Shown here one piece after another: positions 8,500 to 58,085 of a DNA stretch of 64,000 nucleotides. This stretch comes from Polaribacter sp. ALD11 (GTDB lineage Bacteria > Bacteroidota > Bacteroidia > Flavobacteriales > Flavobacteriaceae): positions 2,938,501 to 3,002,500 of the forward strand of contig NZ_CP025119.1 of NCBI RefSeq assembly GCF_002831685.1, given 5' to 3'. A program made the position numbers and the translations under genes. The notes under the pieces were generated by a model, which did not search any database, had not been told where the DNA came from, and worked only from the letters and a program-made list of their open reading frames with translations. The number at the start of each line of letters is the position of its first letter. Within the stretch, counting starts at the first letter, position 1.

Positions 8500-8634
8500 A
8501 TTTTCTTTTTTGAAGCAGGATTATTTTAATTCAAGGTTTAAGACGTCTTGTTTCTTGCCTCTTGATTTTTTTTAACAATTGTATATAGAAAAGAAATTTA
8601 ATTTTCTGATGCTATGTTTTTTATAAATATACTT

Positions 8635-8700
8635 AGCCCTGATTGAAGTGACATCCTTTTTATTTTTCATAAAAAGATATAACGGAAAGCAGGAAATAGC
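8635..8700 (+). repeat. AGCCCTG-type structured intergenic element (single copy here)
   Basis: The sequence begins AGCCCTGATTGAAGTGACAT, continues through a hairpin of T5/A5 type (CCTTTTT...AAAAAGAT) and ends GGAAAGCAGGAAATAGC. CCTG near the left and CAGG near the right can pair. From general familiarity this resembles an element often seen between flavobacterial genes; I could not run a search. It lies just past the miaB stop. The strand given is arbitrary. Confidence 0.5.
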
Positions 8701-38646: not shown

Positions 38647-39903
38647 CTACAAACCAAAAGCTTCTTTAACAGTAGCTACATAGTCTAATTTTTCCCAAGT
38701 AAATGTTTCTACTTCTTCAGAAACTGTTTCTCCCATAGGGTTAGAAAAGGTAACTGTTTTTATTTCTGGTGTTCTCCCCATGTGACCATAAGCCGCAGTT
38801 TCAGAATAAATTGGCGTTCTTAATTTTAAACGTTGCTCAATAAAATAAGGACGCATATCAAAAATAGCTTCTACTTTTTTACTGATTTCTCCATCTGTTA
38901 AATCTACCGTTGCTGTTCCGTAAGTTTCAACATTAATACTTGTTGGTTTCGCTACACCAATGGCATAAGAAACTTGTACTAAAACTTCCTTACAAAGTCC
39001 TGCAGCAACTAAGTTTTTAGCAATATGTCTTGTTGCATATGCGCCAGATCTATCTACTTTAGAAGGGTCTTTTCCAGAGAAAGCACCACCACCATGGGCG
39101 CCTTTTCCTCCATAAGTATCAACAATAATTTTACGACCTGTTAAACCAGTATCTCCATGAGGTCCACCAATTACAAAAACTCCAGTTGGGTTAATGTGGT
39201 ATGTAATATTGTCTGTAAATAATTTTTTATTTTGAGCAGGTAAGTTTGCAACTACTCTAGGAATTAAAATCTCTACAATATCTTTTTTTATTCTAGCTAA
39301 CATTACATCATCAGATTTGTCAAAATCATCATGTTGTGTAGAAATAACAATCGCATCAATTCTTTGTGGTACATTATCATCTGAATACTCGATGGTCACC
39401 TGAGATTTTGCATCTGGTCTTAGGTAATCAATTTCCTTGTTTTCTCTTCTTAAATTTGCTAATTCAATTAACAATCTGTGAGACAATTCTAAAGCCAAAG
39501 GCATGTAGTTTTCTGTTTCATCAGTTGCATAACCAAACATCATTCCTTGGTCTCCAGCTCCTTGTTCTTCTGGGTTTTCTCTATCAACTCCTCGGTTAAT
39601 ATCTGGTGATTGTTCGTGAATTGCAGATAAAACGCCACAAGAATTTCCATCGAACATATACGCACTTTTGGTATATCCAATTTTGTTAATTACGTCTCTA
39701 GCAATTTGTTGAACGTCTAAATACGTTTTAGATTTAACTTCACCTGCTAAAATAACTTGTCCAGTAGTTACAAGGGTTTCGCAAGCAACTCTACTATTTT
39801 TATCGAATGCTAAAAAATTATCAATTAAAGCATCAGAAATTTGATCTGCAATTTTGTCTGGGTGTCCTTCAGAAACACTTTCTGAGGTAAATAAATATGA
39901 CAT
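38647..39903 (-). CDS. metK: S-adenosylmethionine synthetase
   Basis: 418 residues, with ATP- and metal-binding motifs [18 protein letters not shown] at the N-terminus, [12 protein letters not shown] at about 113-124 and [20 protein letters not shown] at about 272-291. It makes SAM from methionine and ATP. The transcript is divergent from the methionine cluster, and its start appears to be more than 220 bases upstream of the ATG. That long leader begins with a candidate class II SAM riboswitch, which would give direct product feedback. Confidence 0.97.
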
Positions 39904-40039
39904 AATATTCTTCTTTTTGTGTTAATAAATGATTCCTAAATGTAAATAGTTAGGTTTCCTTTAAATTGAGGTTTCTGAATAAACAGAAAGCAATAAAAAT
40001 AAAAATTGATTGCGTAGTCGCTAAAAGAAGTAGATAATT

Positions 40040-40128
40040 ACTGCTTTAGCATTTTATTCTGAAGAGCTTGTTTTAGTTTCTAAAACATTTCAACAAAAGA
40101 GGTTGCAATCAGTTCAAATTTTCCTCTC
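40040..40128 (-). ncRNA. Candidate class II-like SAM riboswitch in the metK leader
   Basis: Read on the minus strand: stem P1 GAGAGG (40128-40123) pairs with CCTCTT (40102-40097). The loop between them, AAAATTTGAACTGATTGCAA, resembles the conserved SAM-II loop (AUUU-AAC-G-AUUGCAA). Downstream, GCTAAAGCAGT (40050-40040) matches the conserved GCUAAA strand, and its CAGT can pair with ACTG of the loop to make the pseudoknot. About 48 bases, including hairpin TGTTTTAG/CTAAAACA, are inserted between P1 and this strand, longer than in the classical motif. It begins within about 10 bases of the predicted transcription start. Confidence 0.55.
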
Positions 40129-40138
40129 AATTAGACTG

Positions 40139-40146
40139 CAAAAGTA
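40139..40146 (-). promoter_or_regulatory. Bacteroidota-type -7 promoter element of metK
   Basis: On the minus strand TACTTTTG (then CAGTC) matches TAnnTTTG exactly and is identical to the topA element. It would start the transcript near 40132, immediately before the candidate riboswitch. No clear -33 TTTG is seen. Confidence 0.55.
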
Positions 40147-40309
40147 CACTATAAAATTACAATGCCTACTTTTTTAGCGATAATTATTTGTGATGGCATC
40201 ATCAATAAATCAATCTTAAAGATCTAAAGTTAATGTTTTTAAAGAATAAATAATACCAAGTAGATTAAAATGCGAAATTGATATTAAATAAAAAATAGTT
40301 TACTTTTTA

Positions 40310-40342
40310 TTTGGATATTAAATTTTTACAAGCATATATTTG
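40310..40342 (+). promoter_or_regulatory. Promoter of the metY methionine cluster
   Basis: TTTG (40310-40313), then 21 bases, then TATATTTG (40335-40342): a full match to the Bacteroidota TTTG/TAnnTTTG consensus. Transcription would start near 40350, about 25 bases before the SAM riboswitch. Confidence 0.75.
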
Positions 40343-40372
40343 CACTCACAAAGTTCAATAACTTATTGAAAT

Positions 40373-40493
40373 GTTATCAAGAAAGGCGGAGGGATTAGAC
40401 CCTGTGAAGCCTTAGCAACCCTTTTCGTGAGGAAAAGAAGGTGCTAAATTCTACTTAATTTCAGATTCATTTATCTGAAATTGGATAGATAAC
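40373..40493 (+). ncRNA. Class I SAM riboswitch (S-box) of metY
   Basis: P1 GTTATC (40373-40378) closes with GATAAC (40488-40493). The conserved core is present: AAAGGCGGAGGGATTAGACC, CTGTGAAGCCTTAGCAACC, GGTGCTAAATTCTAC and GGATAGATAAC. P3 is CTTTTC/GAAAAG and P4 is ATTTCAGAT/ATCTGAAAT. It binds S-adenosylmethionine and represses downstream methionine genes when SAM is plentiful. Two further hairpins lie before the metY start. Confidence 0.95.
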
Positions 40494-40500
40494 CCAAAAG

Positions 40501-40621: not shown

Positions 40622-41896
40622 ATGAGTACATTAAAATTAGCAACCAACGCGTTGCACGCAGGACACGACGTAACTAAAAATGGAGGTACAAGAGCAGTTC
40701 CTATTTATCAAACAACATCGTATGTTTTTAACAATTCAGAACATGCAGCAAATCTTTTTTCATTAAAAGAATTAGGGTTTATCTACACAAGGTTAAACAA
40801 CCCAACAAATCAAATTTTACAAGATCGATTGGCGGCTGTAGAAGGCGGAATCGGAGCCGTGGTTTTCGCTTCTGGAACTGCAGCAATTGCTACAGGTTTA
40901 TTAACGCTTTTAAAAGCAGGAGATCATATTGTTGCTTCGAGCAGTTTGTATGGTGGTACCTACAATTTATTAAGTGTTACGTTACCAAGATTAGGCATTA
41001 CAACTACATTTGTAGATGCATCAAATCCTGATAATTTTGGAGAAGCGGTTCAAGAAAATACAAGAGCATTTTTTGTAGAATCTTTAGGAAACCCGAAATT
41101 AGATGTTTTAGATTTAGAAGCAATTTCTGTACACGCAAAACAGGCAGAAGTGCCTTTTATTGTTGATAATACAGTAGCAACACCTGTTTTATTAAATCCT
41201 ATTAAATACGGTGCAGATATAGTAATTCACTCACTTACAAAATATATCGGCGGACAAGGAACTTCTCTAGGAGGTGCAATTGTAGATGCCGGAACTTTTA
41301 ATTGGGCAAACGGTAAATTTCCTGAATTTACAGAGCCTTCTGCAGGTTATCATGGTTTAAAATATTATGAAACTTTAGGCGCAGCATCTTATACTTTTAA
41401 ATTAATTTTAGAAGGATTACGTGATTTTGGAGGTGCTTTAAGTCCAACAAATGCGTTCAACATTATTCAAGGTTTAGAAACTTTACCTGTTAGAATAAAA
41501 CAACATTCTATAAATGCACTAGCATTAGCAAAATGGTTAGAACAACAAGATGAAGTTGCTTGGGTAAACTATCCTGGTTTAGAAAGTAGTAAATACAAGG
41601 CTTTAGCAGATAAATACTTACCAAAAGGACAAAGTGGTATTGTAACATTCGGGCCTAAAAAAGGTTTTGAAGCTGCTAAAAAAATTGCAGATAACACCAA
41701 GTTATTCTCTTTATTGGCAAATATTGGAGATACAAAATCGCTAATTATTCATCCAGCAAGTACTACGCACCAACAATTAGATGAGCAAGCACAAGCAAAT
41801 GCAGGTGTTTCTCAAGATTTAATTAGATTGTCTGTGGGTATTGAAGATTTAGAAGACTTAAAAGCAGATTTAACAGCCGCTTTTTCAGAAATATAA
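40622..41896 (+). CDS. metY: O-acetylhomoserine aminocarboxypropyltransferase (sulfhydrylase)
   Basis: 424 residues, full length for this PLP-dependent Cys/Met-metabolism enzyme. It condenses O-acetylhomoserine with sulfide to homocysteine. The PLP lysine lies in DIVIHSLTKYIGGQGTSLGGAIVD (about residue 206). Other motifs are FASGTAAIATGLLTLLKAGDHI, FVESLGNPKLDVLD and HPASTTHQQLDEQAQ. It is the first gene behind a SAM-I riboswitch. A palindromic repeat lies directly behind the stop. Confidence 0.93.
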   Translation: MSTLKLATNALHAGHDVTKNGGTRAVPIYQTTSYVFNNSEHAANLFSLKELGFIYTRLNNPTNQILQDRLAAVEGGIGAVVFASGTAAIATGLLTLLKAGDHIVASSSLYGGTYNLLSVTLPRLGITTTFVDASNPDNFGEAVQENTRAFFVESLGNPKLDVLDLEAISVHAKQAEVPFIVDNTVATPVLLNPIKYGADIVIHSLTKYIGGQGTSLGGAIVDAGTFNWANGKFPEFTEPSAGYHGLKYYETLGAASYTFKLILEGLRDFGGALSPTNAFNIIQGLETLPVRIKQHSINALALAKWLEQQDEVAWVNYPGLESSKYKALADKYLPKGQSGIVTFGPKKGFEAAKKIADNTKLFSLLANIGDTKSLIIHPASTTHQQLDEQAQANAGVSQDLIRLSVGIEDLEDLKADLTAAFSEI

Positions 41897-41908: not shown

Positions 41909-41941
41909 AGACCTCACAAGTTTCAAAAACCGGTGAGGTCT
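41909..41941. repeat. GACCTCAC palindromic repeat, copy 2
   Basis: Arms AGACCTCACAAGTTT and AACCGGTGAGGTCT, slightly imperfect. It lies between metY and the MetX-ThrA fusion inside a co-directional run, without a T-run. Confidence 0.7.
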
Positions 41942-41953
41942 AAAAACATCAAC

Positions 41954-44900
41954 GTGGAAAATCAATTACAACATATCAAAATTAAAAACTTTACGACAGA
42001 ATTGGGTGCTTTTGTTCCTGAACTGAATTTAAGTTACCAAGTTTTTGGTCAAACATTAGGGAATTCTCCTATTATATTAATCAATCATGCATTAACCGGT
42101 AATAGTGATGTTGCTGGTAAAAATGGTTGGTGGAGAGATATTGTTGGAGAGGGAAAAGCAATAGATACAACTGTTTACACTATTTTATCTTTCAACATTC
42201 CAGGAAATGGTTTTGATGGGTTTTTAATTGAAAATTACAAAGATTTCATAGCAAGAGACATTGCGAGAATTTTTCTAGAAGGATTGCAGCAGTTAGAAAT
42301 AACCCATTTATTTGCTCTAATTGGAGGTTCTTTAGGTGGCGGAATTGCTTGGGAAATAATGGTTTTAGATAACAAAATAGCCAAACACTTTTTACCGATT
42401 GCAACAGACTGGAAATCTACCGATTGGTTAATTGGTAATTGTCAAATTCAAGAACAATTTTTAGTGAATTCTAGCAACCCTGTACACGATGCAAGAATGC
42501 ATGCAATGTTATGTTATAGAACACCAGCGTCTTTTAAAGAACGTTTTCATCGCTCTAAAAAAGAAGATTCTACTATTTTTAATGTAGAGAGTTGGTTGTT
42601 GCATCATGGTGAAAAGTTGCAAGAACGTTATCAATTATCTTCTTATAAATTGATGAATCAATTACTTAAAAGTATAGATGTTACTAAAAATGAAGAAAAA
42701 AGGATAGATCTTCTAGATCAAATTGAAGCGAATATTCACATTATTGGTGTGGATTCAGATTTGTTTTTTACTGCGGAAGAAAACAGGGAGACGCATAAAA
42801 AATTAGCATTAACTAAAGAAAATGTTACGTACAACGAAATAAATTCTGTGCACGGTCATGATGCATTTTTAATGGAATATGAGCAGCTTCAAAAAATTAT
42901 AGCACCTATTTTTAATAAAGAGTATAGAACTAAAAAAATGAGAGTATTAAAATTCGGAGGAAAATCTTTAGCAAACGGGAAAGGGATTGAAAATGCAATA
43001 GAAATTATCCTTAATAAACATCATAACGGAGATAAAATTACGGTTGTAGCATCTGCAAGAGGAAATACTACGGACGATTTAGAGGATATTTTAGATAAAG
43101 CGGCTGCTAAAGAGGAATATAAATCTGATTTTGAAAATTTTAAAGAGTATCAACAAGAACCAAACTTCGAAGTAGATTTTTCTAAAGAATTTTCAACTTT
43201 AGAAACTATTTTTGAAGGGGTTTCTTTATTAGGAGATTATAGTATTAAAATTAAAGATGAGGTTTTAGCACAAGGAGAATTGTTATCTGTAAAGTTAGTA
43301 GCTAGTTTATTGTTAAAAAATGGAATTGAGGCAAATGTTACAGATGCAAGACAGTTAATAATTACGGATGAAAACTTCGGAAATGCGCAACCCATTAATG
43401 CTGTTTCTTCAGAAAATGTAATTGCTTATTTTAAAAAGAATGCTGATAAAATAAATATTGTTACTGGTTTTATTTCTTCTAATAAGAAAGGACAAACAAC
43501 TACTTTGGGCAGAAACGGAAGCAATTATACTGCAGCTTTATTAGCAAATTACTTAGACGCAGAAGAGCTGCAAAACTACACACACGTTAGCGGAATTTTT
43601 ACTGCAAACCCAGATTTGGTAGCAGATGCAAAAAAAATAGAACAACTTTCTTTTTCTGAAGCAAATGAATTGGCAAATTTTGGTGCCACAATTTTACATG
43701 CAAAAACCATCATTCCGTTATTGGAAAAGAATATTAATTTACGAATTTTAAACACCTTTAATAAAGAAGACAAAGGGACCTTAATTACTGCAGAATCTTC
43801 CGAAAAAGGAATTAAATCGATTTCTACTATTAACAATGTTTCTTTATTAAATTTTGAAGGAAGAGGCTTGTTAGGTAAAGTAGGTGTAGATGCACGAATT
43901 TTTAGAGTATTAAGTGATAAGAATATAAGTGTAAGTATTGTTTCACAGGGCTCTTCAGAAAGAGGAATTGGCTTAATAATAGCTTCAAGTAGTGCTTCGG
44001 AAGCAGTTTTAGCATTAGAAAAAGAGTTTGAAAGCGATTTTTATTCACAAGATGTACATCAGATTTCTATTGTAGATAATGTTGCAGTAATCTCCATTAT
44101 AGGTCAAGATTTAAGTGAATTTCATCATGCTTATAATTCCTTAATTAAAAATCAAATTGTGCCACTTTTATTCAACAATACAATTACAGGTAAAAATGTG
44201 AGTTTGGTGGTAAAAAAAGATGAACTTCACAAAGCTGTAAATGTAATTCACGGACAAGTTTTTGGTATTGCAAAGAAAATTAATATTGCTGTTTTTGGTA
44301 AAGGTTTGGTTGGCGGAACTTTAATTCATCAAATTTTAGAAAATGCAGCTTCTGTTTTAGAGCGAAGAAAAATTCAATTGAATATTTTTTCTGTAGCTAA
44401 TTCTAAGAAAACTTTGCTAAGCAATAATGGGGTTTCAACAAATTGGGAACAAGATTTAGAAGAAATTGGGGAAGAAAATGTTTCGATAGCAGATATTATA
44501 GCGTTTACAAAAACACATCATTTAGAGAATTTAATTGCGGTAGATAATACTGCAAGTGTGCCTTTTGTAGCCAATTATATTCCGTTGGTAGCAGCTGGTT
44601 TCGATTTGGTTTCTTGTAATAAAATTGCCAATACATTGTCTTTTTCTTTTTACAAAGAATTAAGGGTAAAGTTAAAAGAATACAAAAAACAATATTTGTA
44701 TGAAACAAATGTTGGTGCAGGTTTACCATTAATAGATACCATAAGATTGTTGCATGAATCTGGAGAGAATATTACCAAAATAAGAGGTGTTTTCTCTGGA
44801 AGTTTAAGTTATTTATTCAATACTTTTTCTAATGAAAAGGTAACTTTTTCAGAAGTTTTACAAGAAGCAATCGAGAAAGGATTCACAGAACCAGATGCAA

Positions 44901-45355
44901 GAGAAGATTTGGGTGGAAATGATGTTGCTAGAAAATTATTAATTTTAGCAAGAGAATTAGAATTAGAAAACGAGTTTGTCGATGTAAATATTCAGAATTT
45001 AATTCCAGAAAATTTAAGAGAAGGTTCTGCGGATGATTTTCTGTCTAATTTAGAGTTGATGAACGGCGAATATCAACAATTAAAAGAAGGGCAAAAAGAG
45101 AACCACGTTTTGCGTTATATTGGTGAATTAAGTGGAGATTTATCTCAAGATACTGGTAATTTAGATGTAAAACTGGTCTCCGTTTCTAAAAATTCTCCTT
45201 TAGGGGCTTTAAAAGGTTCAGATGCAATTTTTGAAATTTATACAGAATCTTATGGCGAACAACCGATTGTAATTCAAGGTGCAGGCGCAGGTTCTAAAGT
45301 AACAGCTAGAGGTGTTTTTGGTGATATTTTAAGATTAGCTAAACATAATAATTGA
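41954..45355 (+). CDS. Trifunctional homoserine O-acetyltransferase / aspartokinase / homoserine dehydrogenase
   Basis: 1133 residues from GTG 41954; an upstream in-frame GTG lies inside the palindromic repeat and is less likely. Residues 1-328 are a MetX-type alpha/beta hydrolase: HALTGNSD, nucleophile elbow GGSLGGG at about 123, and Asp (GVDSDLFF) and His (VHGHDAFLMEY) of the triad. From about 329 an aspartokinase follows (MRVLKFGGKSLANG, then ACT domains VSLLNFEGRGLLG). From about 774 comes homoserine dehydrogenase (INIAVFGKGLVGG, LVSCNKIAN, IRGVFSGSLSYLFN). One chain thus makes phosphoaspartate, homoserine and O-acetylhomoserine, the substrate of MetY next door. The usual ThrA is about 820 residues. 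No stop separates the parts. Confidence 0.92.
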   Translation: MENQLQHIKIKNFTTELGAFVPELNLSYQVFGQTLGNSPIILINHALTGNSDVAGKNGWWRDIVGEGKAIDTTVYTILSFNIPGNGFDGFLIENYKDFIARDIARIFLEGLQQLEITHLFALIGGSLGGGIAWEIMVLDNKIAKHFLPIATDWKSTDWLIGNCQIQEQFLVNSSNPVHDARMHAMLCYRTPASFKERFHRSKKEDSTIFNVESWLLHHGEKLQERYQLSSYKLMNQLLKSIDVTKNEEKRIDLLDQIEANIHIIGVDSDLFFTAEENRETHKKLALTKENVTYNEINSVHGHDAFLMEYEQLQKIIAPIFNKEYRTKKMRVLKFGGKSLANGKGIENAIEIILNKHHNGDKITVVASARGNTTDDLEDILDKAAAKEEYKSDFENFKEYQQEPNFEVDFSKEFSTLETIFEGVSLLGDYSIKIKDEVLAQGELLSVKLVASLLLKNGIEANVTDARQLIITDENFGNAQPINAVSSENVIAYFKKNADKINIVTGFISSNKKGQTTTLGRNGSNYTAALLANYLDAEELQNYTHVSGIFTANPDLVADAKKIEQLSFSEANELANFGATILHAKTIIPLLEKNINLRILNTFNKEDKGTLITAESSEKGIKSISTINNVSLLNFEGRGLLGKVGVDARIFRVLSDKNISVSIVSQGSSERGIGLIIASSSASEAVLALEKEFESDFYSQDVHQISIVDNVAVISIIGQDLSEFHHAYNSLIKNQIVPLLFNNTITGKNVSLVVKKDELHKAVNVIHGQVFGIAKKINIAVFGKGLVGGTLIHQILENAASVLERRKIQLNIFSVANSKKTLLSNNGVSTNWEQDLEEIGEENVSIADIIAFTKTHHLENLIAVDNTASVPFVANYIPLVAAGFDLVSCNKIANTLSFSFYKELRVKLKEYKKQYLYETNVGAGLPLIDTIRLLHESGENITKIRGVFSGSLSYLFNTFSNEKVTFSEVLQEAIEKGFTEPDAREDLGGNDVARKLLILARELELENEFVDVNIQNLIPENLREGSADDFLSNLELMNGEYQQLKEGQKENHVLRYIGELSGDLSQDTGNLDVKLVSVSKNSPLGALKGSDAIFEIYTESYGEQPIVIQGAGAGSKVTARGVFGDILRLAKHNN

Positions 45356-57757: not shown

Positions 57758-57957
57758 AAAAAAGGCACTAGTTTTACAAATTAAAACGAATTAGAAAATT
57801 TGTAAGATTTTTATTATTGAATTATAACTAAATCATTATTAATAGTAAGATTTGTGTAAATCGGTAAAATCTGTGTCTAAAAATTTTAATATAATAATTC
57901 TGCAAATAAAAAAATAATACGTTTATTTGTAGTTCAGTTCATAAACTTATTGATTAC

Positions 57958-58061
57958 GTTATCACGAAAGGCAGAGGGATTAGACCCATTGAAGCCTTGG
58001 CAACCTCTCATTTTTTTGAGAAAGGTGCTACATTCTACAAGTTTTTAACTTGACAGATAAC
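57958..58061 (+). ncRNA. Class I SAM riboswitch (S-box) of metH
   Basis: P1 GTTATC (57958-57963) pairs with GATAAC (58056-58061). Core matches: GAAAGGCAGAGGGATTAGAC, GAAGCCTTGGCAACC, GGTGCTACATTCTAC, GACAGATAAC. P3 is TCTCA/TGAGA and P4 CAAGTT/AACTTG. It precedes the split methionine synthase genes. The 200 bases between cysM and the riboswitch show no gene. Confidence 0.95.
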
Positions 58062-58085
58062 AGCGAAAAAATTACCTTTCCTGAT

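Follow-up and report, generated by a model that had tools for sequence, protein, structure and literature searches.

The 64,000-nt stretch of Polaribacter sp. ALD11 DNA analysed here (the window) carries, on its minus strand and directly upstream of the methionine adenosyltransferase gene metK, an element that, judged by its sequence, is a true member of the known SAM-II long loops family (RF01726) with an unusual but recurrent hairpin arm. The element closely follows a Bacteroidetes-type promoter box and is itself followed by two strands, AS1 and AS2, whose complementarity to the aptamer is conserved across genera. Together, these parts quite probably make up a riboswitch in which aptamer and anti-aptamer strands would compete and metK would be lowered when SAM is plentiful, a degree of confidence that excludes the last step of the mechanism. 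Since the family has already been named (Weinberg 2010, PMC2864571), the kind of aptamer is not new; AS1 and AS2, which by predicted pairing form a conserved two-strand anti-aptamer platform, are new here.

In a cmscan of positions 39890-40370, RF01726 was matched at 44.0 bits with an E value (3.2e-7) that is not chance, and the alignment spans the model from end to end (60 positions), interrupted between positions 37 and 38 by 37 extra letters. The gathering score of the model being 44, the window copy is exactly borderline: it was marked over the cut-off in the genome search, as the single copy in the whole genome, and it was absent from the list of a whole-window gathering scan, probably because its score sits on the threshold. 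Neither RF00521 (classical SAM-II), the model suggested by the original prediction, nor RF01826 (SAM-V) gave a covariance-model match at E ≤ 10 in the same cmscan, and both were rejected as home family. Within the RF01726 match, the P1 and loop core GAUUUG..UGAUUGCAACC is one letter off (A for G before AUUUG), the distal GCUAAAgCAG strand reads GCTAAAGCAGT with a predicted ACTG/CAGT pairing, and a methionine/SAM gene (metK, TIGR01034) lies downstream in a member of the Bacteroidetes. Table 1 of PMC2864571 gives SAM-II long loops as a Bacteroidetes family, and the likeness of the window to the family described there extends to the whole element, the phylum, the core and the pseudoknot strand. 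P1, the loop, the distal strand and their complementarities all read on the minus strand as the original prediction had claimed, and its view of a flavobacterial SAM-II relative before metK is borne out by the family match and the TIGR01034 gene, with RF01726 as the home family.

RF01726 is near-universal in the family as sampled, with matches in 187 of 199 genomes, 182 of them over the cut-off. The genus has it in 51 of 58 genomes (43 with scores over the cut-off), and in the phylum 45 of 296 genomes match, of which 41 exceed the cut-off and 36 belong to the same order. Cores were parsed by pattern in 202 of 231 loci, and metK lies downstream in 200 of them; the two exceptions are L047, where another gene follows, and L012, a parsing loss in which the metK motif is present. 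From the 187 matched genomes, 151 loci, chosen with the weakest matches left out, entered a one-per-genus set, from which L050, L052 and L160 (core unmatched by the pattern) and L047 and L198 (without metK) were dropped and 146 leaders kept; 139 of the 146 were long enough for the first swap test and 144 for the later ones. For the start-site duplex, 49 of the 51 genus leaders were parsed, L012 and L028 being lost.

Pocket positions are numbered by our own putative alignment of the window to 2QWY, in which position 8 is A in the window and G in 2QWY. The 13 nucleotides that PMC3764141 lists as completely conserved in SAM-II (U10-12, U20, U21, G22, C23, G42, C43, U44 and A45-47 of 2QWY) are all found in the window as UUU, UUGC and GCUAAA. 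Among the 146 leaders, ATTT with ATTGCAA occurs in 129, and ATGCTAAA likewise in 129. The core pairs of P1 say little because they hardly vary; the fifth pair from the loop, three outside the invariant GG, pairs in 78 of the 146 leaders against 62 expected, a count that none of 500 shuffles reached, and the next three pairs outward are unremarkable (48 against 65, 70 against 66 and 58 against 59 expected). Covariation of ACTG and CAGT looked uninformative in the family because both strands hardly vary, a judgement made by eye from the listings and uncounted. In L226 and L230, from another family of the class, P1 is GTGG/CCAC, a compensatory change, and extra letters, hairpin-like by eye, lie within the P1 loop.

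TAnnTTTG, the Bacteroidetes promoter consensus that PMC9723704 places at -12 to -5, occurs in 142 of the 146 leaders in the 60 nt that precede P1 and in 140 of them at 5-25 nt before the GG of P1, against 4 and 8 of 146 in two types of control stretch. Given that placement, transcription in the window would start near 40134, a few nt before P1, so that the aptamer would be the first thing transcribed and hence a 5'-end structure.

Table. Parts of the metK leader and neighbouring genes, in window coordinates.
Feature	Position	Strand	Basis
Promoter -7 box TACTTTTG, TAnnTTTG type	40139..40146	-	Motif enrichment before P1, 146 leaders
SAM-II long-loops aptamer RF01726	40036..40132	-	cmscan, 44.0 bits, E 3.2e-7
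P1 5' strand GAGAGG	40123..40128	-	Sequence, RF01726 alignment
P1 loop AAAATTTGAACTGATTGCAA	40103..40122	-	Sequence
Pocket UUU and UUGC, in P1 loop	40118-40116 and 40108-40105	-	List in PMC3764141, own alignment
Pseudoknot strand ACTG, in P1 loop	40113-40110	-	Complementary to CAGT 40043-40040
P1 3' strand CCTCTT	40097..40102	-	Sequence, RF01726 alignment
Variable insert arm (hairpin), P1 to pseudoknot strand	40057..40098	-	Fold of -9.2 kcal/mol against shuffles
Pseudoknot strand GCTAAAGCAGT, pocket GCUAAA	40040..40050	-	Sequence, RF01726 alignment; G42-A47 in the PMC3764141 list
AS1, putative anti-pseudoknot strand TACTTCTTTTAGC	40020..40032	-	Hairpin with 40050-40040; fold and swap tests
TTTAGC, complementary to GCTAAA	40025-40020	-	Sequence
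AS2, putative anti-loop strand GCAATCA	40007..40013	-	Complementary to TGATTGC 40111-40105
A-rich initiation region AAAAGAAG, -14 to -7 of metK start	39910..39917	-	Complementary to CTTCTTTT inside AS1
metK, methionine adenosyltransferase	38647..39903	-	TIGR01034 equivalog match (519 bits; cut-off 309)
O-acetylhomoserine sulfhydrylase	40622-41896	divergent from metK	TIGR01326

What the window adds to the RF01726 model is a hairpin arm that separates P1 from the pseudoknot strand, lies outside the 60 positions of the model and is lacking in short-arm relatives. Of the long insert with a hairpin put forward originally, the hairpin stands, and the size of about 48 extra bases gives way to 37 nt over the model; the gap after P1, put at 52 nt against 14-15 in short-arm members of the genus, likewise exceeds theirs by about 37 nt. 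Counted from P1 to GCTAAA in the one-per-genus analysis, it is 50 nt in the window. Across the 146 leaders this stretch has a median of 13 nt and reaches at least 20 nt in 57 and at least 47 nt in 11, figures that under-sample the lowest-scoring, longest arms because the weakest matches are missing from the set. Folding of the window arm is better than that of shuffles in two runs (z -2.8, p 0.01, and z -2.6); among the 57 longer arms, 40 fold better than their mononucleotide shuffles with p ≤ 0.05, and the mean z is -3.4. Genus members run from those without an arm to those with two or more hairpins, and the arm of the near relative L105 has 10 + 8 pairs against 5 + 2 + 8 in the window, with letters partly changed. 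We read the arm as a putative spacer in loop L3.

A long arm lowers the Rfam score, so that genus members can drop under the cut-off and be lost to routine annotation: 8 of the 51 genus matches lie below it, and a gathering scan that covered 20 genus loci missed the long-arm loci L105, L107, L109 and L110. A score that only sits at the gathering threshold might also be taken to mark a decayed, non-functional SAM-II relic in which the low score reflects lost function, yet nearly all core letters match save the 37-nt insert, all 13 pocket letters are preserved and long arms recur, 11 of the 51 genus matches being at least 97 nt long with that of the window included, which together make decay a very improbable reading.

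Downstream of the aptamer, AS1 and GCUAAAGCAGU of the window would form a hairpin of -8.1 kcal/mol, whereas shuffling the 3' part gives -3.7 (p 0.03); for the 146 leaders the values are -7.1 and -4.4 kcal/mol, 41 leaders beat 95% of their own shuffles, and AS1 pairs at least 5 letters in 109. In swaps among 144 genera, own pairs were stronger on average (z -3.3; 1 of 5000), with a median own rank of only 0.49 and 10 of the 144 within the best 5%. The alternative pairing of GCTAAA with TTTAGC, part of the original prediction, thus finds support across genera in the swap test and the AS1 hairpin folds. CCTT is present in the AS1 of 26 of the 36 leaders whose pseudoknot strand has one more G (AAAGGCAG), and of 12 of the 85 leaders that belong to the AAAGCAG class, an association that may be a single inherited change.

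AS2 is the stronger of the two findings, and an unexpected one. A perfect complement of the P1 loop of at least 8 nt is present in 81 of the 146 leaders against 4.1% of dinucleotide shuffles (about 13-fold), and one of at least 7 nt in 102 against 14%, at a median position 35 nt after the start of GCTAAA and in two common versions (GTCAAATC against GATTTGAC, and GCAATC against GATTGC). The match, 7.66 nt with own loops, falls to 6.84 nt once loops and leaders are exchanged between genera (z 9.8; 0 of 5000), a swap test that, like the others, carries no correction for shared ancestry. The four columns that flank the CAAAT/ATTTG core form standard pairs in 81, 62, 71 and 62 of the 86 leaders that have it. 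The window's own match, GCAATCA, is 7 nt long, a length that alone is not rare, so that the case for AS2 there draws on the family-wide enrichment and the tracking of the loop.

That 14% of shuffled leaders reach the window's 7 nt is one argument for a real aptamer with incidental downstream strands, in which the pseudoknot alone would regulate, for example via mRNA stability at the 5' end; that the aptamer starts a few nt from the predicted transcription start and that start-site pairing is not general (below) are two more. An anti-loop strand of at least 8 nt at about 13 times the shuffle frequency, tracking loop differences between genera, nevertheless argues against it, and we consider this reading improbable.

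Under the preferred reading, an aptamer with an anti-aptamer switch, we infer SAM binding, an OFF direction and the release of AS1 and AS2 as output. The position of the promoter would make the aptamer the very first part of the mRNA. In the absence of SAM, GCUAAAGCAGU would be bound by AS1, and the loop, which contains half the pocket, by AS2, in two predicted pairings that are nested and mutually compatible, and the aptamer would be dismantled; with SAM, P1 and the pseudoknot would hold GCUAAAGCAGU and the loop, so that AS1 and AS2 would be released. In the last step favoured for the window, the released CUUCUUUU would pair with AAAAGAAG before the start codon and block initiation. The A-rich sequence before the metK start would then copy the pseudoknot strand and AS1 would be shared, lying on the aptamer when SAM is absent and on the start site when SAM is bound, a strand mimicry that would amount to a Shine-Dalgarno-free translational switch and that we put forward tentatively, as possible. 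Flavobacteria are described in PMC6847099 as lacking Shine-Dalgarno signals and as favouring A at -3, -6, -12 and -13 together with an open structure around the start.

In the window, the AS1/start-site duplex comes to -7.7 against -4.5 and -4.7 in shuffles (p 0.03 and 0.05) and ranks at 0.059 among swaps, and modelled start accessibility is 0.69 in the free and 0.57 in the bound-like state. Start codon and pseudoknot strand are separated by 147 nt, counted from the start of GCTAAA, within which an extra structured stretch sits. Covering of the window start site by freed AS1 is plausible but weak. Over the 49 genus leaders, own start-site pairing averages -4.8 against -3.7 and -3.8 shuffled, and several Polaribacter leaders (L008, L092, L093 and L110) lack the pairing.

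Compensatory changes support the shared use of AS1 in about ten small-genome flavobacterial genera (genomes of 1.3-2.2 Mb), a group defined post hoc; for the window such use is plausible. In the ten genera, the AS1/start-site stem has 9-12 pairs, one column of which appears as U-A, G-C, A-U and C-G and is unpaired in two of the ten; as the ten genera were picked by pairing strength in the swap test, covariation among them is itself post hoc. The metK tree was rejected as a way to define the group without selection, being poorly resolved: nine of the ten genera fall in two small clades, making up 5 of the 9 members of one (support 0.73) and 4 of the 6 of the other (support 0.76), L167 falls in neither, and the stem is absent from the other four of the nine leaders in the first clade.

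Across the wider sample the effect is weak: the first start-site test (139 genera) found 3 of 2000 permutations as good, and the later swap tests (144 genera) gave z -1.2 to -2.7 over four start windows (best -2.65), with nearly as strong a signal from an upstream control stretch (-1.90 against -2.21), coding controls at -1.3 to +1.3 and a median own rank of 0.49. Modelled start accessibility in 146 genera shows no fall in the bound-like state (0.547 to 0.550), and the start site opens slightly less than with shuffled leaders (p 0.035). Family-wide start-site occlusion was rejected, since neither the accessibility modelling nor the swap ranks support it.

Intrinsic termination as output was likewise rejected, as no terminator-like site was detected by a scan of the window leader or, with our own detector, which passed one positive control, in any of the 146 leaders. 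The same result favours an output through Rho, which would keep the aptamer and compete only with the last step set out above: SAM binding would open the released leader, rich in C and poor in G, to entry of Rho, the site being masked without SAM by the anti-aptamer pairings, and transcription would stop before metK. Rho is the main rival because C exceeds G in 143 of the 146 leaders between the aptamer and 20 nt before the start codon (25% C, 12% G), an upstream control stretch having only 14% of each; complementarity to the purine-rich aptamer would, however, also give C-richness, and the terminator detector was checked on a single control. We regard this output as rather unlikely. For the anti-aptamer switch itself, the conservation of AS1 and AS2 makes the question of output in Bacteroidota directly testable. 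Riboswitch action in these bacteria, which lack Shine-Dalgarno signals, seems little described, and full-text searches of the literature brought up no account of the output stage of RF01726.

Among known systems, the metA SAM-II riboswitch (RF00521), as presented in PMC1273637, shares with the window P1, the H-type pseudoknot, the pocket stretches UUU, UUGC and GCUAAA and a promoter a few nt before P1, whereas many of its members bear putative intrinsic terminators, of which none was detected for the window type. SAM-V, reported from marine alphaproteobacteria and Bacteroidetes, has the same fold and pocket as SAM-II and a translational OFF model (PMC6061858); it folds the Shine-Dalgarno sequence into the aptamer (PMC6061858), whereas Bacteroidetes are described as being without such signals (PMC6847099). 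SAM-I (RF00162) binds the same ligand with an unrelated fold and lies in the same intergenic region of the window on the other strand.

This SAM-I riboswitch (40371-40495, plus strand, 72.6 bits) precedes the divergent O-acetylhomoserine sulfhydrylase gene, so that SAM riboswitches of two unrelated classes are arranged back to back, the other lying at 40132-40036 on the minus strand. A divergent SAM-I is also present in 16 of the 20 genus loci scanned (20 of 51), and a cross-count finds both SAM-I and RF01726 in 151 of the 199 family genomes; the 2007 account in PMC2258182 reports no species found with both classes. Three small-genome flavobacteria (G061, G109 and G138) have two RF01726 copies each, and a search for SAM-I in these three genomes found none; in L047, one of the copies (1501-1560) precedes an open reading frame that by eye resembles the window's O-acetylhomoserine sulfhydrylase, a position occupied in the window by SAM-I. 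A second SAM-I riboswitch of the window lies at 57956-58063 (plus strand, 82.2 bits).

Between AS2 and the metK start, the extra stretch of about 65 nt (39990-39921, minus strand) is common to at least eight genus leaders. In an alignment of 8 of the 12 genus leaders with at least 110 nt, it holds a hairpin TTTCTG/CAGAAA with double changes in 3 of 7 consensus pairs, a possible second hairpin CCTA..TAGG, absent from the consensus fold, and a conserved run that resembles AGGAATCATTT. A repeat was rejected, the only significant genome match being the stretch itself (next best E 0.12); its conserved-letter pattern occurs at two other places in the genome with spacers unlike, and among Rfam families Ocean-V comes closest to it, at E 0.013 and 21.6 bits, far under the gathering score of 75.

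Further along the plus strand, 41933-45355 encodes a 1140-aa protein in which a MetX-like part (homoserine O-acetyltransferase, residues 17-325), scoring under the curated cut-off, is fused to an aspartate kinase/homoserine dehydrogenase (residues 336-1138), and a Flavo-1 RNA (RF01705, 72.4 bits) lies on the same strand at 8631-8700.
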